Shown: positions 14,627 to 38,793 of the stretch, one piece after another
How the letters are laid out: each line of letters starts with the position of its first letter
How positions within the stretch are numbered: position 1 is the first letter of the stretch
DNA from: a virus
Virus record (IMG/VR): IMGVR_UViG_3300046455_000083
Span: 1 to 47,405 of that record
DNA length: 47,405 bases
Strand: one strand, 5' to 3'
The notes under the pieces: generated by a model
What the model was told of the DNA's origin: nothing
The model's database searches: none
Seen by the model: the letters and a program-made list of their open reading frames with translations, nothing else
Program-made: the position numbers and the translations under genes

Positions 14627-14672
14627 GGGACACCTAAAAGTCCTTGACACAACTCCGCGTCTCGCGTACATT
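14627..14672 (+). promoter_or_regulatory. Early promoter with shared operator (copy C)
   Basis: GGGAC (14627-14631), seven bases, AGTCC (14639-14643), then directly TTGACA (14644-14649), 17 bp, and TACATT (14667-14672). The same arrangement with identical spacing occurs at 34847 and 38748. The -35 box is perfect. It drives the long rightward early operon starting at 14983. The GGAC/GTCC inverted repeat abutting the -35 box is a likely regulator-binding site. Confidence 0.8.
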
Positions 14673-14924
14673 TCATCCATGCCAACGAACCACGAGAACG
14701 CCGAGTAAGTCAAGGCTGAAAGCGCGGTAAGGGTTCCAAGGCTGTGTAGTAGATAGCAGGAGTGGCGAACCAAATCGCCCGGTTGCCCCGAAGACTACTA
14801 ACGCTACGGGTGTCGTGAACAATTGGAAGTCGGTAGCCGGGACTCAAGGAGTCGTAAGCCGGTCACCCAGCGCTCTGTGATCCCTCTGGGACGGCACCGC
14901 TGGTTCTGCAAGTACCGATGGTTA

Positions 14925-14965
14925 GATTTACCCAGGCTCCTTTATTGAGGGTTCCTGGTTAAATC
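14925..14965 (+). promoter_or_regulatory. Long leader hairpin just upstream of the first early gene
   Basis: GATTTACCCAGG (14925-14936) pairs with CCTGGTTAAATC (14954-14965), 11 of 12 positions, ending 10 bp before the TTAGGAG ribosome site of the first gene. No U-run follows. It may regulate translation, protect the mRNA 5' region or act as an antitermination/processing signal. Confidence 0.65.
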
Positions 14966-14982
14966 ATAGATTAGGAGAACTT

Positions 14983-15420
14983 ATGAAGGGGTTCCAAAAG
15001 GCGGCTACCGCCACAAATCCGTTTGCAGTTCCGTCCGAGTCATACAAGGCTAGGACTGCTATCGCTGCTGCGGCTAATACATGGCAAGACGAGTGCAAGG
15101 CAACTCAGGAAGTTAGGCGAGCGCGGGAGCGGGAGGCGCTGACTATAGATGCGATTAGAGCATTCCCGCTGGGCGGTTACTGCATTCGTGAGGGTGTTGT
15201 ACAGGCGCTAAGGTGGCGTCCCCAGGATAACACGCCGATGCCTTATATAGACTGCGACTCGCTGTTCAATGCTACGCACACGGGGCCGTCTGACAGGCTA
15301 ATCCGGCAGAAAGGGTACAGAGACGCTGGCAAGTCTTCGCCTGTCGCGGTTGAGAGAATCAACGAAAGAATTACAGCGTATAACGCGGAAGCCGCGAAGT
15401 TAGGGCTTATCCAATTGTAG
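14983..15420 (+). CDS. Hypothetical early protein (145 aa)
   Basis: First gene of the early operon, with a strong TTAGGAG site 7 bp before ATG. The N-terminal half is Ala/Arg/Glu-rich and helical (WQDECKATQEVRRAREREAL); the C-terminal half contains LGGYCIREGVVQALRWRPQ. No family is recognised. First position suggests a host-takeover or regulatory role (inference from place only). Confidence 0.85.
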   Translation: MKGFQKAATATNPFAVPSESYKARTAIAAAANTWQDECKATQEVRRAREREALTIDAIRAFPLGGYCIREGVVQALRWRPQDNTPMPYIDCDSLFNATHTGPSDRLIRQKGYRDAGKSSPVAVERINERITAYNAEAAKLGLIQL

Positions 15421-15446
15421 TAGCAACACTAGGACCGGACCAAATA

Positions 15447-15701
15447 ATGTCAAACGGTATCAAATTCAAGCTAGCACATACGGACGGAACTGAAGTCCAA
15501 CCATTGTGGTTTGTTCTGGCGGTAATTCGGAAGCATGGCTTTAGGACGGTTTGCCCTGTCGTACGCAGCGGTTTGGCGGGCTCGTTTCTGCTCGCTACGC
15601 TGGTGTATGTTGGCAACATCGCGGACCGTGTGAGCGCTATGCCGGGCATCTGTGAGGAGCTTGGGGAGGAGTGTACCTGCACTGAACTTACACCCGCTTA
15701 A
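15447..15701 (+). CDS. Hypothetical early protein (84 aa)
   Basis: ATG start with AGGACC upstream. The central part (FVLAVIRKHGF to SGLAGSFLLATLVYVG) is moderately hydrophobic and the C-terminus has three cysteines (CEELGEECTC). Function unknown. It is followed by a terminator-like hairpin. Confidence 0.75.
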   Translation: MSNGIKFKLAHTDGTEVQPLWFVLAVIRKHGFRTVCPVVRSGLAGSFLLATLVYVGNIADRVSAMPGICEELGEECTCTELTPA

Positions 15702-15735
15702 CTCGTTAGTATTCCTGATGTGACACCATTTTACT

Positions 15736-15764
15736 AAGCCTGCTAGCAGCATCAAGCGGGCTTT
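15736..15764 (+). terminator. Terminator-like hairpin in the early operon
   Basis: AAGCCTGC (15736-15743) pairs with GCGGGCTT (15756-15763; one G-U pair) over a 12-nt loop, followed by TTAATCTT. Strength looks moderate, so it may attenuate rather than stop transcription into the downstream early genes. Confidence 0.6.
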
Positions 15765-15792
15765 AATCTTCCCTAGATACTTAGGATAACAA

Positions 15793-16167
15793 ATGATTAT
15801 TTACCGTGTTGAGACTGAGAGCGGCAATGGTCCGTACGCTGGTGCAGAGATAGGCTATAGCTGCGGGTCCGTTCATCATGCGCCCAGCCCGTACGGAGAC
15901 TGCGAGCTTAGGCCCGACTGGTCGCACCTTCAACGCCACGGAGAGGACGATAAGTTTTACTTCGGCTTCTCTACTCCTCAGCTACTCCTGGACTGGTTCC
16001 ACTCTGCTGACTTCCACACCGAGGCGGAGAACGCTGGATACCGCGTTAGCGTTATAGAGGTTCTAGGCCGCGTCTTTCACGGGACGTATCAATCAATCTT
16101 CGAGCGCAGTAAATCGGTAGTAACCAAGCGACTCACGTTCAACGAAATTAAACAACTCGCCATTTAG
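15793..16167 (+). CDS. Hypothetical early protein (124 aa)
   Basis: ATG preceded by TTAGGATAAC. It begins MIIYRVETESGNGPYAGAEI, a start reminiscent of small phage proteins that carry an RVE..NGPY motif, and has an aromatic, His-rich middle (DWSHLQRHGEDDKFYFGF). Function unknown. Confidence 0.8.
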   Translation: MIIYRVETESGNGPYAGAEIGYSCGSVHHAPSPYGDCELRPDWSHLQRHGEDDKFYFGFSTPQLLLDWFHSADFHTEAENAGYRVSVIEVLGRVFHGTYQSIFERSKSVVTKRLTFNEIKQLAI

Positions 16168-16175
16168 GACTACAC

Positions 16176-16400
16176 ATGACCACGAACAACACCCGCATGT
16201 ACGACCCAGTAACCGATAAGTTTGTTAAGGCTGTCGCACCCGCAACCACGCCTAACGCTCCGCGCACCTTCGACGTAGAACGCAAGCACGGCGTAGGACA
16301 GTTCCTCCGCGCACACAGCGAAGCAGCCCGCGTAATGGCGCGTATGCGCAGCGATAGCAAAGAGTTCTACAGCATCGCAGCACGAGCACGGATGCGCTAA
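16176..16400 (+). CDS. Hypothetical early protein (74 aa, basic)
   Basis: ATG with TTAGGAC upstream, 8 bp after the previous gene. Basic and helical C-terminal half (HSEAARVMARMRSDSKEFYS). No family is recognised. Confidence 0.75.
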   Translation: MTTNNTRMYDPVTDKFVKAVAPATTPNAPRTFDVERKHGVGQFLRAHSEAARVMARMRSDSKEFYSIAARARMR

Positions 16401-16402
16401 CA

Positions 16403-16588
16403 ATGGACTTCTTTAAGACTCTCGCCTTAGCACGTGAGAAAGGCGCAACCATCACGCACCACGAGGCATCCAACACGGTGCAGATTGATGGTAGTCATTG
16501 GACACGCTGGTTAGTGCTGCGTAACTACCCGGACTCTAACTGTGTGCCTAACAGCAGCAATACCTACATTCGTGGGATGTATGCATGA
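16403..16588 (+). CDS. Hypothetical early protein (61 aa)
   Basis: Small protein beginning MDFFKTLALAREKGATITHH; ends at a TGA overlapping the next ATG. Function unknown. Confidence 0.7.
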   Translation: MDFFKTLALAREKGATITHHEASNTVQIDGSHWTRWLVLRNYPDSNCVPNSSNTYIRGMYA

Positions 16589-16722
16589 CGGGCGATAACG
16601 GAATCTACATCGATGTACGCCACTGGACGCACGGGGCAGCATTGATACGTGAGTTTCAGCGGTACTGGAATAGACAGCAGATTGAGCGATACAAACAACG
16701 GAGCAAATATGAGCGAGTTTAA
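16585..16722 (+). CDS. Hypothetical early protein (45 aa)
   Basis: The ATG (16585) overlaps the preceding TGA as ATGA. The product begins MTGDNGIYIDVRHWTHGAAL and ends in a basic helical tail (QQIERYKQRSKYERV). It overlaps the next gene by 14 bp. The coupled start supports it as real; function unknown. Confidence 0.65.
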   Translation: MTGDNGIYIDVRHWTHGAALIREFQRYWNRQQIERYKQRSKYERV

Positions 16723-17077
16723 AGTTGGTGATAAGGCAATTTTCCTGGGTAATCATCGCTACATTGCGGATTGGCCGGAAGACGAAGCGTACGCGGGACA
16801 AGCAGGTACGGTTTCCGAGGTAACCGCAGCGGGGACGCCCCGTGTAACGATGCCAGATGGTTACTTGGTTAAAGGGTGGGGCGAGGACCAATTCGAGCTT
16901 GTGCCTACCGCAGCCTACATCATCAACGGCGCTAACTACGAATACCCCACGCTAGAAGCCGCTGAAGCTGGCGTTAAGGCTATCGGGAACAACGGCGTTA
17001 CATACCAGATTGCGCAGATTGTTAAGCGCGTTACTGTGAAGCGTGAGACTGTGGTTACGCTGGAGGAGACGGTATGA
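16709..17077 (+). CDS. SH3-like small protein, paralogue 1
   Basis: I choose the ATG at 16709 (GGAG upstream) over an in-frame start 60 bp earlier. The 122-residue protein begins MSEFKVGDKAIFLGN, a KxGDxA/V opening typical of small SH3/KOW-like barrels, followed by GQAGTVSEV. The C-terminal half (AAYIINGANYEYPTLEAAEA, then GVTYQIAQIVKR) is shared with the next gene, so the two arose by duplication. Function unknown. Confidence 0.82.
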   Translation: MSEFKVGDKAIFLGNHRYIADWPEDEAYAGQAGTVSEVTAAGTPRVTMPDGYLVKGWGEDQFELVPTAAYIINGANYEYPTLEAAEAGVKAIGNNGVTYQIAQIVKRVTVKRETVVTLEETV

Positions 17078-17451
17078 GTAGGTTTAAAGCTGGGGACAAA
17101 GTTCGAGCCGTAGATGAGGATTTGGACGGCGTAGAAAACGGTAAGGTGTACACCGTTGATAGCGTGCGGGATGATGATGGTTGTCTAATCCTAAGTGAGA
17201 TACTGGAGGCACACCCGCTGCATGCGCGTTTCTCATGGAGGTATGAGCTAGTACAGCCCACCAACGCCTACACCGTCCATAACGAGACCTTCGGCGGTTG
17301 CTACTGTGGTTCATTCTTTACCATCGCTGAAGCAACCACATGGATTCAGGATGACGGCGCTTCTGGTGAAACGTACACCATTCGGGAAACCATCGAACGG
17401 CGTAAATTCGAAGTAGTCGAGAAGGTACAACGAGAGCTTAAGGCTATCTAA
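17074..17451 (+). CDS. SH3-like small protein, paralogue 2
   Basis: Overlaps the previous stop as ATGA. The 125-residue protein begins MSRFKAGDKVRAVDEDLDG and has the same C-terminal plan as paralogue 1 (NAYTVHNETF, FFTIAEATTWI, GETYTIRETIERR). Likely a beta-barrel nucleic-acid- or protein-binding fold; role unknown. Confidence 0.82.
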   Translation: MSRFKAGDKVRAVDEDLDGVENGKVYTVDSVRDDDGCLILSEILEAHPLHARFSWRYELVQPTNAYTVHNETFGGCYCGSFFTIAEATTWIQDDGASGETYTIRETIERRKFEVVEKVQRELKAI

Positions 17452-17645
17452 TGAAAACATTCAAAGTAGGCGATTCTATTCGCTGTATGAAGCCCGCAAC
17501 GTTCCTCGCTATCAAAGCAGGGCAGCGCTACACGGTGTCCAAGCTGGGCGGTATCAGCGATGGTGAAGATATGGAATACGTACAGGTTGCGGAGCTTCCC
17601 GGCTGCGCGTTCAAGGTTGATCGGTTTATGCTGGTGGAGGGCTGA
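17451..17645 (+). CDS. SH3-like small protein, paralogue 3 (short)
   Basis: 64 residues, beginning MKTFKVGDSIRCMKPATFLA and ending in FKVDRFMLVEG, the single-domain version of the family without the C-terminal half. It overlaps the preceding stop by one base (TAATG). Confidence 0.8.
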   Translation: MKTFKVGDSIRCMKPATFLAIKAGQRYTVSKLGGISDGEDMEYVQVAELPGCAFKVDRFMLVEG

Positions 17646-17648
17646 GCG

Positions 17649-18041
17649 ATGCCTAAGTTTAAGTTTGGCGACTCTGTACGGCTGGATAACCAGGACGCGT
17701 ACGGTGGCGAGTGGGCAGGCGATATGACCGTGCAAGAGGTCTACATCTGCGGCACCATTACAGTAAAACACCCCACTAGTGGTATAGGGGCGTTCGATCC
17801 TGACGAATTGATAGAGCGGAAAGAGACCGGGTTCGATCTGTTCGTAGCAATGCTTGGTAAGCCCATTAAGTTCCGATCTGGCTGCGCTGTAACGTTCGTG
17901 GCCTATGTACCGGACGCTAAGCCGCACTGCCAGCTTGTGCTACTCAATCCGTCTACTGGTAATGTCGTTACGCGGTACGCCAACGGTAAGAGCAGCACGG
18001 AGACTTACGACGAGCCTGGCGATATCCTCGTTAAGTGCTAG
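17649..18041 (+). CDS. SH3-like small protein, paralogue 4
   Basis: 130 residues, beginning MPKFKFGDSVRLDNQDAYGG, with the DPDELIERKE end of the barrel followed by a different C-terminal half (LGKPIKFRSGCAVTFVAYV). GGAGGG lies upstream of the ATG. Fourth tandem member of the family. Confidence 0.8.
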   Translation: MPKFKFGDSVRLDNQDAYGGEWAGDMTVQEVYICGTITVKHPTSGIGAFDPDELIERKETGFDLFVAMLGKPIKFRSGCAVTFVAYVPDAKPHCQLVLLNPSTGNVVTRYANGKSSTETYDEPGDILVKC

Positions 18042-18259
18042 AGCAAGTAGCAGTAGGCGCGCTAGGCGTTCTCTGCGTATGGCTGAGTCAACACAGCAAG
18101 GCTAGCGTTAGACGATACGCATGCATTGTAGGGATACTCACCCAGCCGCTATGGTTCCTAATATCCTGGCAGTCTGGACAGTACGGAGTGTTTGGGCTGT
18201 GCGTTGTGTATCTAGTCGTATGGCTTAAGGCGTTCTATAACCATTGGATTAAGGAGTGA
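18035..18259 (+). CDS. Small membrane protein (74 aa)
   Basis: GTG start inside the end of the previous gene. Two or three hydrophobic segments are visible: VAVGALGVLCVWL, ACIVGILTQPLWFLISW and YGVFGLCVVYLVVWL. An inner-membrane protein of unknown role; superinfection exclusion or host inhibition are common jobs of such genes (not shown here). Confidence 0.75.
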   Translation: MLEQVAVGALGVLCVWLSQHSKASVRRYACIVGILTQPLWFLISWQSGQYGVFGLCVVYLVVWLKAFYNHWIKE

Positions 18260-18753
18260 GCGCGCTAACAACGGAAAGGCTTCGGCATGTCCTGCATTAT
18301 TCAAAGTCTACGGGATTGTTTAAATGGCTACACCCAGCGTCAAATAGAAATAAGCCCGGAGACATTGCAGGAAGTGTAACGAGTACTGGACACTTGCAGG
18401 TATGTGTAGACGGGCGTAGATACCTTGCGCACAGGTTAGCATGGTTGTATGTAAAAGGTGTTTGGCCTGAGCACAGAGTAGACCATCGCGACACCCAGCG
18501 AGGTAATAACAGATGGTCTAACCTGCGTGAATGTACGCCATCTCAAAATATGTACAACTCCAAGATATCCTCTAGAAATACATCTGGAGTAAAGGGTGTA
18601 AGTTGGGACAAGAGCGAGAACAAGTGGACTGCCAGAATAAACGTTTCTGGGAAGGTGCACAACTTCGGATTGTTCAGTAGTAAGGAAGACGCAATAAAAG
18701 TAGTACGCGAGAAGCGCGCATTACTTCACGGGCAATTTACCAACCACGGTTAA
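18256..18753 (+). CDS. HNH endonuclease with AP2 domain (paralogue)
   Basis: GTG start overlapping the previous TGA (GTGA). The 165-residue protein has HNH residues in HRLAWLYVKGVWPEHRVDHRD and NNRWSNLRE (about residues 58-92) and an AP2-like SGVKGVSWDKSENKWTARI (about 110-128). It is clearly related to 9616-10119 including the C-terminal LLHGQFTNHG. Codons are more A/T-rich than the neighbours, as expected for a mobile homing-type gene inserted in the early operon. Confidence 0.9.
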   Translation: MSALTTERLRHVLHYSKSTGLFKWLHPASNRNKPGDIAGSVTSTGHLQVCVDGRRYLAHRLAWLYVKGVWPEHRVDHRDTQRGNNRWSNLRECTPSQNMYNSKISSRNTSGVKGVSWDKSENKWTARINVSGKVHNFGLFSSKEDAIKVVREKRALLHGQFTNHG

Positions 18754-18771
18754 TTATTAGGAATACGTAAC

Positions 18772-19128
18772 ATGGCAAAACTTAATGTAGCTGCACTCCG
18801 CGCTAAGGCTGCAGAATACACGGCTAAAGCTGACGCACTCGAAGCCACGGAGAAAGCCGGTAACGCTATGGCTAACCTCGCAAGTGGGGACGTGATTGAA
18901 TTCATGTTTGGTCGCGGAGAGACGCGTAAGCAGCGTGCGGGCGTTGTGCTGGGCGTTGCGGAGACGGACAAGGGTAAGAAAATTAAGGTGCAGACCGGAG
19001 AGGGATTCGAAGCGGAGATTCTGGTTATCTCCCCGGATGCAATCGTAGCCGTTGCGGAAGATATCGCGGAAGGTCAAGCGGTGGATGCTACGGCGGCTAG
19101 TGCGGACCCGCTTGCAATGCTGAGCTAA
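18772..19128 (+). CDS. Hypothetical protein with KOW/SH3-like core (118 aa)
   Basis: ATG with TTAGGAATAC upstream. An Ala/Lys-rich N-terminal helix (AALRAKAAEYTAKADALEAT) precedes a small beta domain (SGDVIEFMFGRGETRKQRAG, then KKIKVQTGEGFEAEILVISP). Similar helix-plus-barrel proteins sit next to replication genes in other phages. No specific function recognised. Confidence 0.75.
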   Translation: MAKLNVAALRAKAAEYTAKADALEATEKAGNAMANLASGDVIEFMFGRGETRKQRAGVVLGVAETDKGKKIKVQTGEGFEAEILVISPDAIVAVAEDIAEGQAVDATAASADPLAMLS

Positions 19129-19145
19129 GAAACTACGGAGGTAAC

Positions 19146-19967
19146 GTGAGCGATAAAGCATGGTTAGTATCTGCCCAGTCGCTCCCGGAAGGTAGTACGC
19201 GGAAAATGGGCCACTCGTGCGGCCCTGGTGATTGTCTCCAGATTAACGCCAAACGAGACGGCTGGGCCGCGTACTGCCATCGGTGTTCATATAAGGGATT
19301 CGTACCGCGCCCTGCTGAGACTCTGACTGAGAAACTGGAACGCCTGAAGCGCATACAGACCGCTGAGCGGGACGCGTGCTTTAGCCCTAGCCTACCTATG
19401 CCCGCAGAATACGAGCCTTCCCTATGGCCTCTGGCGGCGCGTGTGTGGTTGTACAAGGCGGGACTGTCCAACGTTGAGATACAGCAGCTAGGGTATTACT
19501 GGAATGCGCGGATTCAACGTGTCGTTATGCCTATCCGGGATGCTGCAGGGACGCTGCTGTATTGGCAAGCGCGGACGCTGGATAAGACCAACCCTAAGAA
19601 GTACATAAACCAGAAGGGTGTAGATAAGCACGGCTTTGTAGCTAAGTATGGTGCAGGGCCTCTAGTAGTACTAACAGAGGATATTCTGAGCAGTTACAAG
19701 GTATCTCGTGCGGGCGTTGAGGCTTGGCCCTTAATGGGCACGAAGCTAAGTACTACGTTGGCTGCTGAGATTATCCGAGATAGTAGGCCGGTAGCCGTTT
19801 GGCTAGACCCAGATACAGCGGGTAGAACCGCAGCCGCGAAAGTATGCAAGACCTTACGCGCTTACGGCGTGAAGGTTACGAATGTTGAATCTAACGTTGA
19901 TCCTAAACTTTTAGCCCGTGAGGAAATCATATGCAAGCTACAGAAGCATTGCGGATTGCCCGCTTAG
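19146..19967 (+). CDS. DNA primase (zinc-binding plus TOPRIM)
   Basis: GTG start behind GGAGG. Residues about 19-45 form a zinc site (HSCGPGDC followed by YCHRC), as in bacteriophage primases; the TOPRIM core follows with VVLTEDILSSYK (catalytic Glu) and WLDPDTAGR (the DxD motif). Length 273 matches the stand-alone primase half of a T7 gp4-type protein. The helicase is a separate gene at 20957. It would make RNA primers for lagging-strand synthesis. Confidence 0.92.
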   Translation: MSDKAWLVSAQSLPEGSTRKMGHSCGPGDCLQINAKRDGWAAYCHRCSYKGFVPRPAETLTEKLERLKRIQTAERDACFSPSLPMPAEYEPSLWPLAARVWLYKAGLSNVEIQQLGYYWNARIQRVVMPIRDAAGTLLYWQARTLDKTNPKKYINQKGVDKHGFVAKYGAGPLVVLTEDILSSYKVSRAGVEAWPLMGTKLSTTLAAEIIRDSRPVAVWLDPDTAGRTAAAKVCKTLRAYGVKVTNVESNVDPKLLAREEIICKLQKHCGLPA

Positions 19968-20290
19968 CCTTAGCCATGCACTTTGACATTGAGCCGGATG
20001 TAGTAGACGGTAGGTACGTAGGCGCTTATGTTGCGATTGGTGCGAAGAAATGCGACCTAGACGCAGCGGAGGCTTATAACAAACTGGCGGAAATGCAGCA
20101 GGATAGCGCGGAGCGAAACGCAGAGCGTTACGTTAAGTTGCGTCGGTGGATGACTAGCAATGTTGTGGAGGGTTGGCGGGAGGTAGAGAACCTATCTTCT
20201 GTGGGTTGCTATGTAGGCTGGGATAACTTCGATTCATACCTGGACTGTCTGCCCGTATGTAATGTAGGTCTCTGCGAGGGTGTGGCGTGA
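19931..20290 (+). CDS. Hypothetical protein (119 aa)
   Basis: Starts inside the last 37 bp of the primase gene. Helical, begins MQATEALRIARLALAMHFDI and has several C-terminal cysteines. No family recognised. Confidence 0.75.
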   Translation: MQATEALRIARLALAMHFDIEPDVVDGRYVGAYVAIGAKKCDLDAAEAYNKLAEMQQDSAERNAERYVKLRRWMTSNVVEGWREVENLSSVGCYVGWDNFDSYLDCLPVCNVGLCEGVA

Positions 20291-20640
20291 GCAAGGCCGT
20301 TCTCTACATCCGCAACGTATCTATAGCCGCCGCGCGCGTCCCTAAGTCTATCCTAGGTATCTACACGTACCACGTAGGCTACAGCTACATCCATAACGTT
20401 GCGGCTACGGTGGATTGCTTTGGTAACGCGCTATCCGGTGGAGACCCAGACGAGACTATTAGTAGCCGCTGCGGTAAGGCTGCGGAATACGAACAAAGCA
20501 TTACGCCCGCTGTATGGGGCGGTGGTTGCCGTATGTGTTCCTTTCTGGCTATCTTTCAGCAGGATCACTGTGCTAAGGCGGTAGAGCGTTGGAAGGGTAG
20601 GCGCGCGGTAGTGCCTGATGAAACTACGGAGACGCAATGA
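20287..20640 (+). CDS. Conserved phage protein with GGDPDETISSR motif (117 aa)
   Basis: GTG start overlapping the previous stop (GTGA). The central GNALSGGDPDETISSRCGKA followed later by FLAIFQQDHCAKAVERW is a pattern I recognise in many phage and prophage proteins of unknown function. Conserved Cys and His (CRMC, DHC) could bind metal. Role unknown. Confidence 0.82.
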   Translation: MSKAVLYIRNVSIAAARVPKSILGIYTYHVGYSYIHNVAATVDCFGNALSGGDPDETISSRCGKAAEYEQSITPAVWGGGCRMCSFLAIFQQDHCAKAVERWKGRRAVVPDETTETQ

Positions 20641-20963
20641 GCAAGACATTTGTGTATGAGCGGTTCGATATCTGCGGAGCAGGCGGCTACTACATATACA
20701 CCGAGAAAGACTCTAGATCGGATGGAGAGTACGTACTAGCCGAGGACGCCATTAACCGCGAGGCCGTATTACAAGCGCATATTAGGACGCTGGAGGTACA
20801 GCTTAAGGACGCTAGGGCCAACCCACTACAGAAAATAGGATACATGCACCCGGACGCGTACAGACGTATTAAAACGGGAGACCCGTCCTCGTGCAGGTCT
20901 AAGACCTACGGGGAGCCGGAGGAGCTTGTTCTATACGCCAAGGTAAAGGAGGCTAGTTGCTAG
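20637..20963 (+). CDS. Hypothetical protein (108 aa)
   Basis: Coupled ATGA start. Begins MSKTFVYERFDICGAGGYYI; a predicted helix (EAVLQAHIRTLEVQLKDARA) and a final part with YMHPDAYRRIKTG. Function unknown. Confidence 0.75.
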   Translation: MSKTFVYERFDICGAGGYYIYTEKDSRSDGEYVLAEDAINREAVLQAHIRTLEVQLKDARANPLQKIGYMHPDAYRRIKTGDPSSCRSKTYGEPEELVLYAKVKEASC

Positions 20964-22240
20964 AAATTACACTGCTCAAACTGCTTCGAAGTAGAGAGCG
21001 AATGGAGCGGCTAGGGCGGTTTGTACCTAAGTCCGCTCTAGACGTTAGAACGCAAACCATCATTGCGGACATGCAGGCGTATCTATCGGAGGCTGATGTA
21101 CCGGAGGTTTCTATTGATCCTTTCTATGTGTGGTTCTGCCTGCGACACCCTACGCTTAACACGGAGCAACAGGAACTATACAAAGCACTCCTTACGCGCG
21201 CTCTCACTGAGCCGGTAGACCCTGAGACGGAACGCGGGATACTGCCAAGGCTTCTATCTGCGGAGTACGCCAGCAACGTAACGGACGCGGTAACGCGATT
21301 CAATGAGGGCGCGGAGATTGATCTAGCGGCAACGCTGCGACACCTGGCGGACGAGCACGAAAAGGATACGGGCAAGAAGTCTAAGGTTCCCGAAGTTGAG
21401 GAGGGCATAGATACCATTCTGCAGGAAGACATGGTAGACGGTGGCCTACATTGGCGGCTAGATTGCCTTAACCTCTGCATGCGTCCGCTGCGTGGCGGGG
21501 ACTTCATTATCCTAGCCGCGCGCCCAGATAAAGGTAAGTCTAGCTTTATCGCCTCTGAAGTAACACACATGGCCCCACAGTTTGATACGTACTACGGCGA
21601 GAGCCACGGGCGTAGCGTGGTTATCATGTGTAACGAGGGGCCTGGTAGGCGGATTGTGCAGCGCGTGTATCAGGCAGCGCTAAACCTTACCGTGCAGGAG
21701 ATGATAGTTAAGTCCACCAAGGGCATACTGTCTACTGAGTACGCTAGCGCCGTGGGTTCTCTAGATCGTATCCGCGTAATGAACATTCACGACTTCTTTA
21801 ACTATGAGGTTGAGGAAATTCTAAAGCGCGTGCGGCCTGGGCTGGTAGTTATGGATATGATCGACGGGATTAAGTTCGGCGGCTTCGCCTCTAACGGGGG
21901 GCAACGTACCGACCAGATTCTAGAGGCTCAATACTCATGGGCGCGACTTATGGCGGTTAAGTATGACTGCCCGATTATTGCCACCTCTCAGATTAGCGCG
22001 GACGGTGACGGTATCTCGTTTCCTACGCTATCAATGCTAGCCAATAGCAAGACTGGTAAGCAGGGCACAGCGGACGCTATTATCACTGTGGGCGCGCTTA
22101 ACGATCCTGTGTACGCCGCGTCTAGGTTTATCGGACTGACAAAGAACAAGCTTGCGCGTGCTGGTGCTCCGCAGTCTCCCCGCTGTGAAGTTATGTTTGA
22201 CCCTTCTAGAAGCCGGTACAGCATGCCGGAGGAGAAATAA
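20957..22240 (+). CDS. Replicative DNA helicase (DnaB/T7 gp4 type)
   Basis: TTG start behind AAGGAGG, overlapping the previous gene. The C-terminal RecA-like domain shows LRGGDFIILAARPDKGKSSF (Walker A variant ARPDKGKS, about residues 178-197), VVIMCNEGPGRRIV, Walker B GLVVMDMID, and the H3/H4 region CPIIATSQIS. Length 427. It should unwind DNA as a hexamer, working with the separate primase. The Walker A motif lacks the usual second Gly, which is replaced by Asp-Lys. Confidence 0.93.
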   Translation: MLEITLLKLLRSRERMERLGRFVPKSALDVRTQTIIADMQAYLSEADVPEVSIDPFYVWFCLRHPTLNTEQQELYKALLTRALTEPVDPETERGILPRLLSAEYASNVTDAVTRFNEGAEIDLAATLRHLADEHEKDTGKKSKVPEVEEGIDTILQEDMVDGGLHWRLDCLNLCMRPLRGGDFIILAARPDKGKSSFIASEVTHMAPQFDTYYGESHGRSVVIMCNEGPGRRIVQRVYQAALNLTVQEMIVKSTKGILSTEYASAVGSLDRIRVMNIHDFFNYEVEEILKRVRPGLVVMDMIDGIKFGGFASNGGQRTDQILEAQYSWARLMAVKYDCPIIATSQISADGDGISFPTLSMLANSKTGKQGTADAIITVGALNDPVYAASRFIGLTKNKLARAGAPQSPRCEVMFDPSRSRYSMPEEK

Positions 22241-22533
22241 TGCGTTACGGAATTGTGATTACACAGTGTGACGACTTGCTTAACGAGGAGCAGCCCGCAC
22301 ACGTACTCAGCAAAGGTACGCTAGTTCGTATCCTGCGCCCTACAGCGTACCCATTAGGTTTGCTGGTTGAGACTATGTACCCGGTATTCGGGACGTGGGA
22401 CATGCGGTATATGCACCGCACACAGGTGCTAGACACTTCGGACCTTTACGAGTTCCCAGCGTACTGCGGCGCATTCATTGAGCGCTTGGCTAAGGTGCTG
22501 CAGAGCACGCGTGAGATGTTCGGTATCGCGTAA
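22240..22533 (+). CDS. Hypothetical protein (97 aa)
   Basis: Starts on the last base of the helicase stop (TAATG). Begins MRYGIVITQCDDLLNEEQPA; contains KGTLVRILRPTAYPLGLLVE, a small beta fold. Function unknown. Confidence 0.75.
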   Translation: MRYGIVITQCDDLLNEEQPAHVLSKGTLVRILRPTAYPLGLLVETMYPVFGTWDMRYMHRTQVLDTSDLYEFPAYCGAFIERLAKVLQSTREMFGIA

Positions 22534-29340: not shown

Positions 29341-29525
29341 ACCAATGGGTAGCTTGGCGGGCGTGGTTTCCAGTTAGTACGCTGGGCGGCCGCCTCGTTT
29401 GGCTACGGGCCGTAGAGCGCAAATGGAACCCGGATATTAACTCTTGGGGCTATGGCGGATACTCAGGATATGACGGGGGTTACGAGTACAGATTGCCACA
29501 CATAAACATTAAGGAGTCCGTCTGA
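29328..29525 (+). CDS. Small hypothetical protein (65 aa, Trp/Gly/Tyr-rich)
   Basis: ATG within the end of the PP-loop gene. Begins MRNIDQWVAWRAWFPVSTLG and has a Gly/Tyr-rich centre (WGYGGYSGYDGGYEY). Unknown function. Confidence 0.7.
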   Translation: MRNIDQWVAWRAWFPVSTLGGRLVWLRAVERKWNPDINSWGYGGYSGYDGGYEYRLPHINIKESV

Positions 29526-31738: not shown

Positions 31739-34120
31739 TTGCAGACAATTCAATCTTACGCAGCACAGCGGGAAGCAGCTAATAAAGTAGAGATTGATAG
31801 TATCCCTGTAGTACGTCCCTTTGCACGTAAGCATGTGGAACGGCTGCAGGAGGACGGGTATAGCGCGCGAGTCCTTAAGCAGCTATGCCGGGAGGCAGAA
31901 TCTAGCCGCCGTGTATCATCCGAATCCTCGCTACAAGAGCACGCAGAATCACTTAACGTATCTAAGCTGCAGGAAGGGTTAGACACGTTTCTAGCTGCAC
32001 TACAGACGGCCAAACGCACCCGTAGTAAGGTCTCTGCGATATCCCACACAGGTGGGGCGTTTAATCCCGTTAACCGCATACCGGTAGAGGACCAAGCGGA
32101 GGCCGTATGGGATTCGCTTTGCTCATTGCTGGGTGCGATTGCCAATAAGGAAGACCAAGGCGGTATAGGCGTACAGTCTGTGGCTGCACTATTGGCTAGG
32201 CGTCTCCGCTGGTTTACTGGCGGTGCTGAGGAGTATAAGAGTCTAGGCTATGAACGCGCTGCACTTATCCTGCTAGATCATTTCTGCGATGCTACGGGAT
32301 GGTTAGTAGAGGTATCAGGTGCGCGGCGTATGTTATCCGCACGACAGAAGCCCAATACATACGCACTTACGCAACGGTTCATTGATGACGTGCTAGGCGG
32401 TGGTATGGCTGCGGACTTCTCAGAACGTAGACCTATGCTAGTCCCTCCTGTACCTTGGACGCCTACAGCAACGCACGGCGGATACCTTCACGCGGGCATA
32501 CAGGCTGTACGTGGAGCATCCAAGCCTATCGAGTCCCCTGTAATCGTCTCCGCATTGAACGCCCTGCAGGCTACACCGTTCCGGGTAAATAGACGTGTTC
32601 TAGATATGGCTGGGAAGCTGCAGGAGAACGCGGAGGAGCTTTCCGGGCGGTTGGTGCTAGGTAGGTATCTGGAAACCCGCCATGACGAGGTAGAGGCTGT
32701 ACGCAAGTCTAAGACGATTCGTAGCGCTCTGACTATTTCCGCCCTCACTTCGCTACAGGATGCAGAGGAATTCTATTTTCCTTGGAATCTGGACTGGAGA
32801 GGCCGGATGTATCCCGCCACGAGCCTAATCAGCCCGCAAGGTGCGGACCTATGTAAGGGGTGCTTGGAGTTTGCGGACGGAACGCCGCTAGGGAAGGAGG
32901 GAGCTAAATGGCTGGCTATCCACCTGTGTAACCTGGCAGGAGCAGATAAGGAGATCGTAGACGGGGAATATCGGACGCGCACACCGGAGGAGCGGGAAGC
33001 GTGGACGCTGCATTACAGCGCAGAGATTGTAAACGTAGCTAACAGCCCTGAGACTGTACGCGCGTGGCACTTGATAGGCGGGTTCGGGCTGCAGAAGATT
33101 AAGCGCGGTAAGGTGGTTCCTGTAGCCGTGGATAAGCCTTGGCAGTTTCTAGCCGCTTGCTTCGAGTGGGCCGGATATCAGGCGGAGGGCGTGGGGTTCC
33201 GTAGCCGCCTCGCTGGGGCGTTGGATGGTAGCTGTAGCGGCGTACAAATGTTAGCAGGTATGACGCAGGATTACTCAGCCGGAACGATGGTTAATCTAGT
33301 TCCCGCACCACGAGGAGATGATTACTACGGGCGTATGGCTGCTGCACTATCCCGGAGGCTGTATGACCGTGTAGACGGTGCGGACGAGAGAGAGCTAGCA
33401 CACCTGGCGTATTGGGCGGAGCATACAATAGACCGCGATCTACTCAAAGCTCCAAGCATGACTAAGGTATATAGCGCGGGTACGTACACCTTTGGCGAGC
33501 AGGTAAAGGCTAAGACTGGTGCGCCTGATGACGAGTCTATGTGGCTAGCCGCACGTATTAACGAATGCTTCGCGGACGTAGCTCCGGGTATGTTGCTCGC
33601 TATGGGATATCTACAGGCTGTGTCTGACGTGCTCACAGAGGAGAACATCCCTTTGCACTGGGTAACGCCTGCAGGGTTGCAGGTAGAGCAAGCGCGGTAT
33701 ATGGACGACGCTGTATGCCTGTCCTCAGAAGTCAACGGGAAACGGCATACACGTACGTTCTATATTAATGGGGACACATTGAGCAAAAAAGGACAGCGTG
33801 CAGGCGTAGCACCTAACTTTGTGCATGGCGTGGACGCTTCACATATGGCGATGGTCGTTAATGATCTAGTGTCTAAGGGAGTTACCCGGCTGTGGATGAT
33901 TCACGATAGCTTTGGCGCACCGTTCGCACATTGCGGTACTGTGTTTGACAGCACGCGGGATAAGTTCATAGAGCTAATGTCTGGTGATCTACTCCGGGAG
34001 TGGACGGAGGCCGTTACGGCTGGGCTATCCGCTGATGGTAAGGCTAAGCTACCTAGCTTGCCGGAGTACGGAGACCTAGACCTTAACGCCGTGCGGGATA
34101 GTATGTATGCGTGGTTCTAA
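31739..34120 (+). CDS. Single-subunit T7-like DNA-directed RNA polymerase
   Basis: 793 residues (T7 RNAP is 883), TTG start with a weak site. Key motifs are intact: WNLDWRGRMYP with PQGADLCKG, motif A LDGSCSGVQ (Asp about 496), the B helix RDLLKAPSMTKVYSAG (the Arg, Lys and Tyr matching T7 R627, K631 and Y639), FVHGVDASHMA, and motif C MIHDSFGAP (Asp about 723). It should transcribe phage late genes from its own promoters. It is the last large gene of the early operon; a lambda-type tail with such a polymerase is uncommon. Confidence 0.96.
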   Translation: MQTIQSYAAQREAANKVEIDSIPVVRPFARKHVERLQEDGYSARVLKQLCREAESSRRVSSESSLQEHAESLNVSKLQEGLDTFLAALQTAKRTRSKVSAISHTGGAFNPVNRIPVEDQAEAVWDSLCSLLGAIANKEDQGGIGVQSVAALLARRLRWFTGGAEEYKSLGYERAALILLDHFCDATGWLVEVSGARRMLSARQKPNTYALTQRFIDDVLGGGMAADFSERRPMLVPPVPWTPTATHGGYLHAGIQAVRGASKPIESPVIVSALNALQATPFRVNRRVLDMAGKLQENAEELSGRLVLGRYLETRHDEVEAVRKSKTIRSALTISALTSLQDAEEFYFPWNLDWRGRMYPATSLISPQGADLCKGCLEFADGTPLGKEGAKWLAIHLCNLAGADKEIVDGEYRTRTPEEREAWTLHYSAEIVNVANSPETVRAWHLIGGFGLQKIKRGKVVPVAVDKPWQFLAACFEWAGYQAEGVGFRSRLAGALDGSCSGVQMLAGMTQDYSAGTMVNLVPAPRGDDYYGRMAAALSRRLYDRVDGADERELAHLAYWAEHTIDRDLLKAPSMTKVYSAGTYTFGEQVKAKTGAPDDESMWLAARINECFADVAPGMLLAMGYLQAVSDVLTEENIPLHWVTPAGLQVEQARYMDDAVCLSSEVNGKRHTRTFYINGDTLSKKGQRAGVAPNFVHGVDASHMAMVVNDLVSKGVTRLWMIHDSFGAPFAHCGTVFDSTRDKFIELMSGDLLREWTEAVTAGLSADGKAKLPSLPEYGDLDLNAVRDSMYAWF

Positions 34121-34135
34121 CTTAGGGAATCTATA

Positions 34136-34821: not shown

Positions 34822-34846
34822 TGCTGGCCCTTAATTTAAATTGTAC

Positions 34847-34892
34847 GGGACATGAAATAGTCCTTGACACAGTGAGCGGGAGAAACTAATCT
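34847..34892 (+). promoter_or_regulatory. Promoter with shared operator (copy A)
   Basis: GGGAC (34847-34851), seven bases, AGTCC (34859-34863), TTGACA (34864-34869), 17 bp, TAATCT (34887-34892). It matches the other two copies in every spacing. It precedes the small-gene operon from 34931 and is divergent to the endolysin gene. Confidence 0.82.
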
Positions 34893-34930
34893 ACGTACAT
34901 AGGCAGCACGAACCCACCAGGAGAAACGAA

Positions 34931-35074
34931 ATGCAAGTAGGCCAAAAGGTACTGTGTAACGGCTACGAAGGAACCATTAGCGCAGTACTTACCGGCCAGC
35001 TTACGGGCATGGTTGAGGTTCGCTTACCCGGTGGACTGGTCTGTGTTGACGTGACTACTATCAAAGCGATCTAA
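34931..35074 (+). CDS. Small SH3-like protein (47 aa)
   Basis: ATG behind AGGAG. Begins MQVGQKVLCNGYEGTISAVL and ends in VDVTTIKAI: a minimal beta-barrel like the tandem SH3-like family at 16709-18041. First gene behind the shared-operator promoter; role unknown. Confidence 0.72.
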   Translation: MQVGQKVLCNGYEGTISAVLTGQLTGMVEVRLPGGLVCVDVTTIKAI

Positions 35075-35082
35075 CAAGGTAC

Positions 35083-35100
35083 GGCCCGCTAAGGCGGGTC
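35083..35100 (+). terminator. GC-rich stem-loop (possible attenuator)
   Basis: GGCCCGC-TAAG-GCGGGTC forms a 7-bp stem (one G-U pair) with a 4-nt loop between the 47-aa gene and the Rmf-like gene. Followed by a C/T-rich stretch without a real U-run, so partial termination or mRNA processing is most likely. Confidence 0.5.
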
Positions 35101-35127
35101 TCCTCCCAAGCTACTAAGGAGTACGAA

Positions 35128-35262
35128 ATGTCCGCTAAATTTCACGTCACATTCTGGATAGGCTACGAAGCACGCGTATGCAACGCTCGCCGCGAATCCT
35201 GCCCGTATCAATCCAAGGCTATGCGCGCGGAGTGGTTGCGCGGTTGGGATGCAGCGAAATGA
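35128..35262 (+). CDS. Rmf/CrpP-family small protein (44 aa)
   Basis: ATG behind AAGGAG. The pattern IGYEARVCNARRESCPYQ followed by EWLRGWDAAK matches ribosome modulation factor and its relatives (G-Y-x-A, C-P-Y-Q, W-L-x-G-W). E. coli RMF dimerises ribosomes in stationary phase; phage members of the family are of unknown function, and CrpP is also a relative. Here it would be made from a host-type promoter. Confidence 0.8.
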   Translation: MSAKFHVTFWIGYEARVCNARRESCPYQSKAMRAEWLRGWDAAK

Positions 35263-35372
35263 ACACGACAGCCCGCGCGTTTATGTGTGCGCTAGCGCTG
35301 CGCGAATGGGAAGACGTAGGCGCGTTCTTACGCGCTACCGGAGCGAGTCTGATTAATGGAGACTACAAATGA
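35259..35372 (+). CDS. Small hypothetical protein (37 aa)
   Basis: Coupled ATGA start. Begins MNTTARAFMCALALREWEDV; short amphipathic protein. Unknown role. Confidence 0.65.
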   Translation: MNTTARAFMCALALREWEDVGAFLRATGASLINGDYK

Positions 35373-35581
35373 ACCTTGAACAATTCAGGAGCCGTCCGCT
35401 GGTGGTTACGGTTAAGGAGCTTTGCCCTAACTGCCAAACGCTTAAAGAGGGCGTTAAGTTGCGGGAGCATAAGCCGTATCACTACGCTACCCCTTGGACG
35501 CTGAAGTCATGCGAACCGTGTTTCGAAGCTGAGAAGCACACGCGGGCCACTACCACGGAGGATGATTATTATGCTTGGTAG
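35369..35581 (+). CDS. Putative zinc-binding protein (70 aa)
   Basis: Coupled ATGA start. Two Cys pairs, CPNC (about 19-22) and CEPC (about 48-51), suggest a zinc ribbon; N-terminus FRSRPLVVTVKELCPNCQTL. Unknown role. Confidence 0.72.
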   Translation: MNLEQFRSRPLVVTVKELCPNCQTLKEGVKLREHKPYHYATPWTLKSCEPCFEAEKHTRATTTEDDYYAW

Positions 35582-35711
35582 CCTGCTTATACTAGCCGCT
35601 ATGCTCGTCCTCTCGTGCGTAATGGTGGTAGTAGTGCTGATACTGGACCGGGCTACGCCTAGCAAGCCGCACCCGGATACTGATAAGATTGATTGGCCGC
35701 CGTACAACTAA
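35571..35711 (+). CDS. Small membrane protein (46 aa)
   Basis: ATG overlapping the end of the previous gene. Begins MLGSLLILAAMLVLSCVMVV, one membrane span, then a short polar tail rich in Pro and Asp (PHPDTDKIDWPPYN). Unknown role. Confidence 0.65.
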   Translation: MLGSLLILAAMLVLSCVMVVVVLILDRATPSKPHPDTDKIDWPPYN

Positions 35712-35722
35712 CTGGAGTTACC

Positions 35723-35920
35723 ATGACCTACGCAGACTTGTATCAAATCTTGATCGAAGCAGAGCATCGCGTTAAAGAATACAAAGGAACGGAGTTTGAC
35801 GAAGTAGCGCAACGCTCACAAGAGACTGTATCCCTTTGCTTGCAACGCTGCGCTATGGAGGGAATCACCCGCCTTGAACTGCAACTTATGGCAATGGGGC
35901 AGAATAACAAGGCAGCTTAA
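35723..35920 (+). CDS. Small helical protein (65 aa)
   Basis: ATG behind TGGAG. Helical and charged (YQILIEAEHRVKEYKGTEFD, RSQETVSLCLQRC). Its end overlaps the convergent integrase gene by 35 bp. Unknown role. Confidence 0.7.
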   Translation: MTYADLYQILIEAEHRVKEYKGTEFDEVAQRSQETVSLCLQRCAMEGITRLELQLMAMGQNNKAA

Positions 35921-37283
35921 CGCCGTGGACTTCAAAGCGTTCGATTGCTTCCACTAAGGGGCGTAGAGGAAAATAGCCGCTCCCGTAATCACGGGATACG
36001 CTTCCGGTAGTATGCCCCGACAGCGCGTCGCTAACTTCCTCAGTTACGCCCACCTCCCTCATAATATCCTTAAAGAAATGGCGGAAGCTGTGGAAGGTTT
36101 TACGTTTATCCGTTATACCTAGTTCCCGCTTTAGCTCTCCGAAGCGCGCGCTAAATCCTGCTGTCTCCCGTCCGTTCTTATCAGGCTTTAATTCCGGGAA
36201 TAACCGCGCACCCTTCTGGCTATGGACATATTTTATAAATCCTAAGTCTACTAACACCTTATGCACGGGCACACGCCTACAGCTACTTTCGTTCTTAAGA
36301 CCCTGCCCAGCACCTTCCTCCGTGACGTAAATAACGTACACCTTGTGTTCCTTCCCTTCTTTATCCCGGTAACGCTCCTGCACAATATCCACAGGGGCTA
36401 ACTGCCCAATCTCCTCTAACCTTAATCCGGTATATAGCCCGATTACAGGTAGCCAGTATTTAGCCCCACTCGTGGGCAAACTCCCAAATATCTTGTTTAT
36501 CTCGTCAATCGTAAAGGATAAGCGAGCAGTCTTAGCGCGCTTTTGTCCCGTAGTCTTAACTCCCTTAACCGGGTTATCCTTAATCCATCCTTCATCTACG
36601 GATGCACTAAGGACCGCATGCAATAGTGAGATGCTAGTCCTAATAGTACTGGCCTGCTTACCGTCGGCTTTAAGTGCGGTCTGAAACTGTACGATATGCT
36701 CCCGCTGTATTTTCCGTAATGGTAGCTTTCCGCAGACTTCCCAGAATCGAGACACAAGCGTATGTGCTGTCGTGCGTGTTGACCCGCTAGGGTCTCTAGC
36801 CTTTTCCCAATGGCGCAACGCCTCAGCAAGCCCTACAGCGGTCTCCGTTGGCGGGGTTGGTGCATGGGTAGCCACTCCGGGAGCGGAGGGCACCACGGGG
36901 CTATACATGACTCCCGCTAGCACATCCCTTATAGACTTGTCAATGCCCTCTTTGAATCTGGCTAGCGCTGCCTCCGTACGGGCTGCTTCTACGTCTTGCT
37001 CTAGCTCGCTGTCGTCAGGGTCGCCGTGTTCGTCCTCATGCATCCCGTCTAGACCCTGCTTACCTCCGCTGACTACCTGTACGCGTTCCCTTGTGCGGGT
37101 TACTGCGAATAGCTCGTCTATCTGTACAGCCATCTTGCGCGCACGTATCGCAGCCTCTTTAGGATCGCTGGTATCCAATGCCCGCTGAATCTCTTTCTTA
37201 CCGTCTAGGAACGGGACCAAATCAGTAGGAACCCTACGCCTGTAGTAATACCGTGCCCCGCGTCTTACGAGATGTTCGCTCAT
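35886..37283 (-). CDS. int: Tyrosine integrase (intact)
   Basis: I start at ATG 37283 (AGGTG upstream; begins MSEHLVRRGARYYYRRRVPT) rather than a GTG 36 bp earlier; 465 residues. The N-terminal domain is of the type common in proteobacterial integrases. The catalytic set is complete: Arg288 (LYTGLRLEEI), Lys330, His398 and Arg401 (FHSFRHF), His424 (LSGHTTG) and Tyr433 (RDYGSGY). It should integrate and excise the phage at an attachment site, most likely in the 190-bp gap upstream. Confidence 0.94.
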   Translation of the reverse strand: MSEHLVRRGARYYYRRRVPTDLVPFLDGKKEIQRALDTSDPKEAAIRARKMAVQIDELFAVTRTRERVQVVSGGKQGLDGMHEDEHGDPDDSELEQDVEAARTEAALARFKEGIDKSIRDVLAGVMYSPVVPSAPGVATHAPTPPTETAVGLAEALRHWEKARDPSGSTRTTAHTLVSRFWEVCGKLPLRKIQREHIVQFQTALKADGKQASTIRTSISLLHAVLSASVDEGWIKDNPVKGVKTTGQKRAKTARLSFTIDEINKIFGSLPTSGAKYWLPVIGLYTGLRLEEIGQLAPVDIVQERYRDKEGKEHKVYVIYVTEEGAGQGLKNESSCRRVPVHKVLVDLGFIKYVHSQKGARLFPELKPDKNGRETAGFSARFGELKRELGITDKRKTFHSFRHFFKDIMREVGVTEEVSDALSGHTTGSVSRDYGSGYFPLRPLVEAIERFEVHGVKLPCYSAPLP

Positions 37284-37386
37284 AATGCACCTGTGTCCTG
37301 TGTGACAGCCGCAGAACACATTTCCGGGCTGTAAGCCTTATCAGGCTTGGACTCAATGATACACGGGCGTTCCTATGTGGACAATG

Positions 37387-37408
37387 CAGTAGTTCTCCTA
37401 CTGTATAT
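37387..37408. promoter_or_regulatory. Inverted repeat upstream of the integrase
   Basis: CAGTAG-TTCTC-CTACTG (37387-37403) is a perfect 6-bp inverted repeat followed by TATAT. The 11-mer CTACTGTATAT (37398-37408) recurs at 12676-12686 in the other control region, within TACAG-N8-CTGTA. Candidate operator or integrase-arm/attachment-site element. Confidence 0.5.
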
Positions 37409-37472
37409 TTACTTTAAAATCAAGTACTTATAGTTTAGAAATTGCGGCTTGTGGGAGACGTCTGTGTGACAT

Positions 37473-37790
37473 TCATCGGAGGTTAAGACGCTTCCTGCCA
37501 ACCGCCACAAGATGGTCCACCAGGTAGGCCAACGGTTCCGCCCCGTTAGACTGTGGATCAATCCCGCATACCGTAAGGATAGAGGATGCAGCGTGTACCG
37601 CCTCGTGTACCAGGGTCATTAGGTTGCCGTCAAACACACCGATAACTCCATACGCCTTCTTACCCGCGTCAAACCCGCCAGCGGTGTTACGAAAGTCTAC
37701 CTTCGAGTGTCGCAGGGCGTGGAACTCCTTTACGGTGTTGGTGAATACAATCCGCATGCCGTAAGGTTGGACTACGTAGGTAGACCGCAT
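37473..37790 (-). CDS. Putative zinc metallopeptidase-like protein (HExxH)
   Basis: 105 residues, ATG overlapping the Rz1 stop. Contains LVHEAVHAASSIL (HExxH, about 61-65) and downstream NGAEPLAYLVDHL with a Glu that could be the third ligand. The gene is the last of the holin-Rz-Rz1 cassette. A zincin fold is likely; the substrate (cell wall, membrane protein or host factor) is unknown. Confidence 0.75.
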   Translation of the reverse strand: MRSTYVVQPYGMRIVFTNTVKEFHALRHSKVDFRNTAGGFDAGKKAYGVIGVFDGNLMTLVHEAVHAASSILTVCGIDPQSNGAEPLAYLVDHLVAVGRKRLNLR

Positions 37791-38065
37791 TACTTAGCAG
37801 CGGGGGCGGTAGCCGTAGCCCTCCACGCGCGGAGAGCCGCTTTATCGGCCCAGTCGCACGACTCCGTAACACCACGCTCATTGATGACAGCTTGAGCTAG
37901 ATCCGCCATTGTGTTCCCCGTAGGGCGTGGCGCGTGTGTGCAGTCTTGTAGAAGACCGTCCGGGGGCGTAAGCACCTGTACTACCGGGATAGGCAGGGCG
38001 GTAGCGCAGCCGGACATACAAGCCGTAGCCACGAGCAACGCCAGGATAATAAGACTATTTCGCAT
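37790..38065 (-). CDS. Rz1: Outer-membrane spanin lipoprotein (Rz1-like)
   Basis: I start at ATG 38065, which has GGGAG eight bases upstream. MRNSLIILALLVATACMSGC is a lipoprotein signal peptide with the modified Cys20. The mature protein is Pro-rich near the N-terminus (LPIPVVQVLTPPDGLL), with the pattern MADLAQAVINER, then CDWADKAALRAW typical of Rz1-type proteins. With Rz it fuses inner and outer membranes at lysis. Overlaps Rz by 11 bp. Confidence 0.88.
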   Translation of the reverse strand: MRNSLIILALLVATACMSGCATALPIPVVQVLTPPDGLLQDCTHAPRPTGNTMADLAQAVINERGVTESCDWADKAALRAWRATATAPAAK

Positions 38066-38417
38066 TAGTGTTGCTCCCATAGATAGCCGTCCATACGTCC
38101 TCTGGCACTACCGCGCTAGACACAGCTTTATTAGCCGCAACGGCTGAGGCTAGCTGGGCTGTACTGGCGGTATGGTTCTTAGTGGCTGTAGCGGCCACCG
38201 TGGCCTTCGTATCGAGCGCAGCAGCTACCGCACTAGCCGCGACCAACGCAGCGGCCGTATTGGCTTTCTCACGCGCGTTATCAGCCTGTAGCTGGGTAAT
38301 CTGTGCCTTCTGAGCTTGCATATGCTCGTAGCCCGCGTACAGAGCTAAGGCGGCACCGACCAACATAGCCACGCCAAGCACGGCAGCTAGGATCTTTTCT
38401 GTTAAGGTAGCGAACAT
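38055..38417 (-). CDS. Rz: Inner-membrane spanin (Rz-like)
   Basis: 120 residues: an N-terminal membrane anchor (ILAAVLGVAMLVGAALALYA) then a long Ala-rich, coiled-coil periplasmic region (MQAQKAQITQLQADNAREKA). Typical i-spanin layout. Its start overlaps the end of the holin gene by none; the two abut. Confidence 0.85.
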   Translation of the reverse strand: MFATLTEKILAAVLGVAMLVGAALALYAGYEHMQAQKAQITQLQADNAREKANTAAALVAASAVAAALDTKATVAATATKNHTASTAQLASAVAANKAVSSAVVPEDVWTAIYGSNTNAK

Positions 38418-38690
38418 TTAGTCGTCCTTAGTAGGTGTGGGCTGGTCGCCTAGCTTCTGCCACAGGGACCAATCCTTGTTAACCAGCCCGCGCTTAAGTG
38501 CTACGGCTGTGCGGTAGACACGAGGCAACGCGCCCCAGATATAGAACAGGGTGAGTAGCAAGGTAGCGATAGAGACAACGGTCCCCAGAGGCAACCCGGC
38601 TAGCCCGTAGGCTGTGCCCGCCATGCTGGTTGCAATCTTTACGCCGCTGGCGTCAACCGCCTTATCGGCAGCTTGTGTAAAAAGGCCCAT
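38418..38690 (-). CDS. Holin
   Basis: 90 residues with one strong membrane span (TVVSIATLLLTLFYIWGALP, about 36-56) preceded by a weaker one (ATSMAGTAYGLAGLPLG) and a charged C-terminal tail. The place before Rz/Rz1 and the SAR-type endolysin favour a holin or pinholin that depolarises the membrane. ATG behind TTTAGGAG. Confidence 0.78.
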   Translation of the reverse strand: MGLFTQAADKAVDASGVKIATSMAGTAYGLAGLPLGTVVSIATLLLTLFYIWGALPRVYRTAVALKRGLVNKDWSLWQKLGDQPTPTKDD

Positions 38691-38705
38691 AGGACTCCTA
38701 AATGT

Positions 38706-38722
38706 GCCCTATGAGGTAGGGC
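38706..38722 (-). promoter_or_regulatory. Inverted repeat before the holin gene
   Basis: GCCCTA-TGAGG-TAGGGC, a perfect 6-bp inverted repeat about 20 bp upstream of the holin ATG. On the minus strand it reads CCTCATAGGGC, faintly resembling the start site of T7-type promoters (CACTATAGGGA). Either a phage RNA polymerase promoter element, an operator or a leader hairpin. Confidence 0.4.
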
Positions 38723-38747
38723 CTTCTGATATAAATTATTTATGTAC

Positions 38748-38793
38748 GGGACTGTAAATAGTCCTGGACAGAACGGGACGCGGCGAGTAATCT
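38748..38793 (+). promoter_or_regulatory. Promoter with shared operator (copy B)
   Basis: GGGAC (38748-38752), seven bases, AGTCC (38760-38764), TGGACA (38765-38770), 17 bp, TAATCT (38788-38793). Here the inverted repeat is GGACT-N6-AGTCC, the most symmetric of the three copies. It drives the secreted-protein gene at 38914, leaving a leader of about 115 nt. Confidence 0.8.

Follow-up and report, generated by a model that had tools for sequence, protein, structure and literature searches.

MrpR (YopR) is the master repressor of the Bacillus phage SPbeta, and its operators are the SPBRE elements (PMC10516654). It has the tyrosine-recombinase fold, in which Arg I was lost (V/S), the catalytic His was replaced by Asn, and the His/Trp residue was lost (PMC10516654). 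In Pseudomonas aeruginosa, XerC controls pyocin expression (PMC9431673) and is likewise a tyrosine recombinase affecting the expression of phage-like genes; however, XerC belongs to the host and is active as a recombinase, and that study describes no shared operator of the kind considered below (PMC9431673). This similarity is only partial, and XerC was set aside as a precedent.

The window, i.e., the whole stretch of DNA analyzed in this study, is a 47,405-base virus record. Its gene content is that of a siphovirus with lambda-type tail genes, a PolA-type polymerase, a DnaB-like helicase, a ligase, and two integrase-family genes; a T7-type single-subunit RNA polymerase (phrog_414, 1.2e-149) is encoded at 31739..34120 (+). 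No named phages were found near the window at the DNA level. The contig ends (1-300 and 46999-47298) carry 300-base segments 89% alike, explicable by paralogous genes or, if the genome is circularly permuted, by a mixture of variants at its ends. The PAPS-reductase-like gene and its small neighbour at 28552-29525 occurred in none of the relatives fetched and are probably a recent insertion into the replication module.

The combination characteristic of the MrpR type, an inactive recombinase fold and repeated intergenic operators in the same phage, was found in the window phage. The protein encoded at 13448-14371 and MrpR are both phage-encoded, with a recombinase fold devoid of Arg I, the catalytic His (Asn in both), and His/Trp; both phages carry dispersed intergenic copies of one element and a separate working recombinase. 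In contrast, MrpR retains Tyr and Lys, whereas the window protein has lost the Tyr; the working enzyme is a tyrosine recombinase in the window phage and a serine recombinase in SPbeta; and the window represents a T7-RNAP siphophage with probable Gram-negative hosts. Unlike for MrpR, a close ancestor of the window protein is recognisable among the phage integrases of the Ab31/Paku type (about 29% identity). A profile search to E=10 returned lambda Int and XerD/XerA but not MrpR (PDB 8A0A), which was also not among the PDB matches in the structure search. SPbeta MrpR is the nearest precedent, without detectable homology, and by analogy with it the window protein would work as an MrpR-type system, with specific binding and a role in lysogeny as predictions. 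Our main reading, to which a probability of about 0.7 is assigned, is that three sites in the window are host sigma-70 promoters of a temperate phage, each covered by one 26-bp dyad operator, and that the inactive integrase is the lysogeny repressor acting on all three through the shared dyad.

Operator-promoter sites in the window and related genomes

The preliminary description had placed GGGAC-N7-AGTCC, directly followed by TTGACA or TGGACA, a 17-bp spacer, and a -10 box, at 14627, 34847, and 38748; positions and spacing were verified. The early promoter pE (14644..14672, +) consists of the -35 box TTGACA (14644-14649), 17 bp, and the -10 box TACATT (14667-14672). The promoters of the Rmf-like operon, pR (34864..34892, +), and of the secreted-protein gene, pS (38765..38793, +), read TTGACA-N17-TAATCT and TGGACA-N17-TAATCT, respectively. 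The inverted repeat described as merely touching the -35 box is indeed present there; however, the alignment of its arms revealed a palindrome wider than GGGAC/AGTCC, a 9-8-9 dyad GTnnRGGAC-N8-GTCCYnnAC with A-rich central 8 bp, which overlaps the box, its right arm including the -35 core (TTGAC). Operator O1 of pE (14623..14648, +; earlier core, 14627-14643) is GAGCGGGAC-acctaaaa-GTCCTTGAC, with a weak left arm; 8/9 arm positions match in the early site of G005/G006/G008. The operators of pR (34843..34868, +) and pS (38744..38769, +) are GTACGGGAC-atgaaata-GTCCTTGAC and GTACGGGAC-tgtaaata-GTCCTGGAC. The pS spacer holds an additional GGGAC half-site (38775-38779), and a third GGGAC lies at a fixed spacer position in three pR/pS sites. 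A decayed second operator, O2 (14538..14563, unstranded), reads GTCCAGGAC-tgtataga-GACCGGAAC; its counterpart in G005/G006, located between divergent promoters, is a perfect palindrome, GTCCTGGAC-tctacact-GTCCAGGAC, of the same 9-8-9 spacing. A single conserved half-site (14446..14450, -) was detected upstream of the promoter of the inactive integrase gene (14407..14435, -; TTGACA-N17-TAGAGT), the minus strand reading GTCCC-N10-TTGACA. An extra promoter in G006 (L036:7597), TTGTCCCAAAATAATAC-TTGACA-N17-TACTAT, follows the RNA polymerase gene directly and also has only a single half-site.

The bipartite operator occurs three times in the window, always on the plus strand, against a mean of 0.06 per genome in 200 simulated first-order-Markov genomes, in which the joint operator-promoter had 0 occurrences. 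Relatives were sought in IMG/VR twice, by the motif and independently by the RNA polymerase. The architecture was kept at 17 operator-promoter sites across 8 related genomes, and the near-complete relatives G005 and G006 each carry three sites and no more, the three loci being the same. The pattern used for these 17 sites included the operator, and an operator-blind promoter scan recovered the same kind of sites. Genomes G001, G008, and G009 were first found through the motif pattern, while G002, G004, G005, and G006 were recovered by both scans; since the RNA polymerase search found them independently, conservation in the latter is not an artefact of pattern searching. Over the 17 sites, no variation was found in the letters of the operator, in GAC within the -35 box, in the spacer length of 17 bp, or in the -10 letters T, A, and T; N7, the spacer sequence, and the remaining -10 letters were variable. 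Thus, the same dyad stands at a fixed position while the neighbouring sequence changes, and a loss of the repeat with retention of the -35/-10 boxes, which had been named as evidence against the architecture, was not observed, operator and boxes being conserved together. The features of sigma-70-type promoters (a -35 box close to TTGACA, a spacer of 16-18 bp, TAnnnT, an intergenic position before a gene) were found at 17/17 sites, the spacer always being 17 bp. Pattern matches outside the group (L006, L010, L015, and L016) either had no such architecture or fell within a coding gene, and they appear fortuitous.

Repeated promoters of about 23 bp are usual for T7-type RNA polymerases, and the phage encodes such an enzyme, which raises the question of whether the shared element is its promoter. 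This seems very improbable: there are only three plus-strand sites, with none found before the minus-strand late genes; the element never occurs apart from sigma-70 hexamers with 17-bp spacing, one of which is a -10 box dispensable for a T7-type promoter; and it is wholly changed in phages with polymerases 64-69% identical. In formal terms, the geometry of the sites is also that of a core for a tyrosine recombinase, with inverted arms around 7-8 bp. Nevertheless, they are almost certainly not cores, att-like or invertible, at which the working integrase recombines DNA, as their orientation and place relative to the promoter are constant in all genomes, and the central 8 bp are not alike among the operator copies of one genome, which recombination between copies would not tolerate.

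The early operon behind pE (14983..22533, +) encodes small proteins, an HNH endonuclease, a primase, and a DnaB-like helicase, and the phage RNA polymerase gene lies further along the early region, at its far end. The Rmf-like operon (34931..35920, +), convergent with the integrase gene, contains a gene of the Rmf/CrpP family (35128-35262, 44 aa), and pS is followed by a gene for a small protein with a signal-peptide-like N-terminus (38914..39180, +). With the relatives judged by eye, the Rmf-like gene belonged to the pR operon in 5/5 genomes examined, and a signal-peptide-type protein followed pS in 6/6. These comparative data support a single regulon of host-transcribed genes, made up of the early and Rmf-like operons and the secreted protein, under one dimeric regulator. 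This regulon includes a ribosome-hibernation-like protein in all five genomes.

Two further features were noted near these transcription units. Strong conservation was seen over the initial ~70 nt of the early transcript (14673-14745, +; CCATGCCAACGAACCACGAGAAC...GGTAAGGGTT), and this even in G024, where the inactive integrase is only 39% identical. This leader is foldable, but RNAalifold gave no compensatory changes among 7 sequences, and Rfam contained nothing convincing; most pattern matches outside the group were taken as chance. It is possibly a cis-acting RNA, e.g., an antitermination element. On the minus strand, A+T-rich stretches ending in AAGGGCC/AAGGCCC (34821-34846 and 38691-38747) precede the lysozyme and lysis genes of that strand; the phage RNA polymerase may start transcription there.

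A catalytically inactive integrase beside the early promoter

The gene at 13448..14371 (-) encodes a protein of 307 aa matching Phage_integrase (PF00589, 6.9e-13). Alignment with active relatives (phages of the Ab31 and Paku types) showed the replacements TAMRRSE to TALMQHE, HDLRH to NDLRY, GHKT to GSKT, and RYTH to RILG, so that the residues R, H, R, H/W, and Y of an active tyrosine recombinase correspond to M186, N265, R268, S291, and I300. No complete orthologue, even at 39% identity, has Arg I or the catalytic His; the orthologue L067 (43% identity) retains a Tyr and is a plausible intermediate in the catalytic loss. The nearest Burkholderiaceae relatives retain the Arg and HDLR, except for L156, in which Arg I was not locatable. 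A search with the Paku integrase contributed one further locus only. The inactive proteins form one clade with a support of 100/100, accompanied by long-branch warnings. The dN/dS values between their genes (0.08-0.16) indicate purifying selection, and the gene is therefore not a decaying pseudogene.

The AF2 model built from 26 sequences (pLDDT 83.9, pTM 0.56; an earlier run with 8 sequences was poor, pLDDT 61.8) showed a tyrosine-recombinase fold. Foldseek matched this model with Tn1549 Int (3.5e-9), lambda Int (1.8e-8), and the HP1 catalytic domain (TMt 0.75), and the predicted fold is that of the lambda/Tn1549 integrases. The second integrase (35886..37319, -) is the working one, with intact boxes TGLRLEE, HSFRH, SGH, and RDYGS.

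Repressor locus and proposed regulation

The inactive integrase gene was present in every operator-bearing genome covering the locus (G000, G001, G005, G006, G008, and G009). Two sister phages, G013 and G018, share most of their genome with the window group and have neither the operator nor the inactive integrase. In both, the stretch that separates the same HNH gene from the early operon carries, in the same orientation, genes for Peptidase_S24 proteins (2.9e-9 and 3.7e-19; in G018, also a weak Phage_CI_repr match, 0.011), which by their domain content are CI/LexA-type repressors. Because these proteins stand at that exact position, the inactive integrase occupies the repressor slot, with the same divergent orientation to the early operon. 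In contrast to the CI/LexA type, defined by an HTH and an S24 peptidase domain, it is an integrase relative of a different fold; since the S24 domain needed for RecA-stimulated self-cleavage is absent, one would not expect SOS cleavage to trigger induction. Among the proteins scanned from the early and regulatory regions of the window, none showed another recognisable DNA-binding domain of repressor type.

The preliminary description had left the choice between a phage and a host regulator open. The operator-promoter had 0 matches in 399 genomes of Burkholderiaceae, the family of Pararobbsia alpina, chosen for its related prophage, which may not be the host family of the window phage; from this absence, the regulator is probably phage-encoded and a host one is unlikely. 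The most likely candidate is the integrase-like protein already named at that time.

Co-occurrence alone fails to separate the inactive integrase from early proteins of unknown fold (15447-15701, 17451-17645, and 18035-18259), several of which are equally clade-specific. Accordingly, the same operators and regulon could have as their binder another phage protein, such as an uncharacterised small early one, with the inactive integrase employed elsewhere, e.g., in holding attP or damping the active integrase, which it could modulate. We regard this arrangement as unlikely, as none of the small early proteins has a recognisable DNA-binding domain or is encoded where the sister phages have their CI-type repressor, and the 15447, 15793, and 18035 proteins were not detected in the distant phages with an inactive integrase, which still have shared operators.

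In these distant phages (43% and 39% identity of the inactive integrase), other shared repeats were found at the equivalent promoters. The sequence GTGGGCCAG directly precedes the -10 box of the early promoter and of the PrtN-gene promoter in G025/G026 and is also present, inverted, in the promoter of the inactive integrase; in G024, TGTGCTCCA occurs twice at the early promoter, flanking the -35 box. The geometry is not of the window type, the copies being 30-33 bp apart and flanking the -35 box. Different repeats in different lineages of the inactive integrase are as would be expected of diverging repressor specificities. The second GTGGGCCAG-bearing promoter of G025 leads to a gene (L082:1654-1899) for a PrtN-like protein (PF11112, 3.9e-26), adjoining and convergent with the active integrase; this protein is a candidate excision factor in the same regulon.

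The preliminary description had allowed a dimer to either repress or activate. As the right arm covers the -35 core, repression is favoured and activation less so: a bound dimer should block the host RNA polymerase, and dyad binding and sigma-70 recognition should compete. A regulator turning the three promoters on from a class II site centred near -43.5 is quite improbable, though the dyad lies upstream of and overlaps the -35 box, as class II sites do, and the -10 boxes in the window are weak (TACTAT, TATATT, or TACAGT at the same position in relatives). Against it, the -35 boxes deviate little from consensus and are followed by a spacer of ideal length (17 bp), their core is inside the right arm, and the sister phages hold a repressor at that place.

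Under the repressor reading, binding, dimerisation, repression, lysogeny control, and the order of events are predicted from sequence comparison. A dimer of the inactive integrase would bind the arms as an integrase does on its core site, without the ability to cut, and would bar the sigma-70 RNA polymerase from the secreted-protein gene and from the early and Rmf-like operons, acting as a functional stand-in for CI in lysogeny. Relief of repression would start the early region, and the phage RNA polymerase at its far end would then take over.

The whole phage group seems to have recruited an inactive integrase from a lineage other than that of MrpR. With somewhat better than even odds, this is the second time, and independently, that an integrase which had lost its activity came to serve as the immunity repressor of a phage; in these phages of probable Gram-negative hosts, it would have replaced a CI-type repressor at the same locus, with operators that keep the recombinase-core geometry while diverging between phages into separate specificities. 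As the genes of inactive integrases match integrase families, annotation of such temperate phages would list two integrases but fail to show a repressor. If the reading is true, immunity groups would be set by the operator sequence, and induction would be independent of RecA-driven repressor cleavage.
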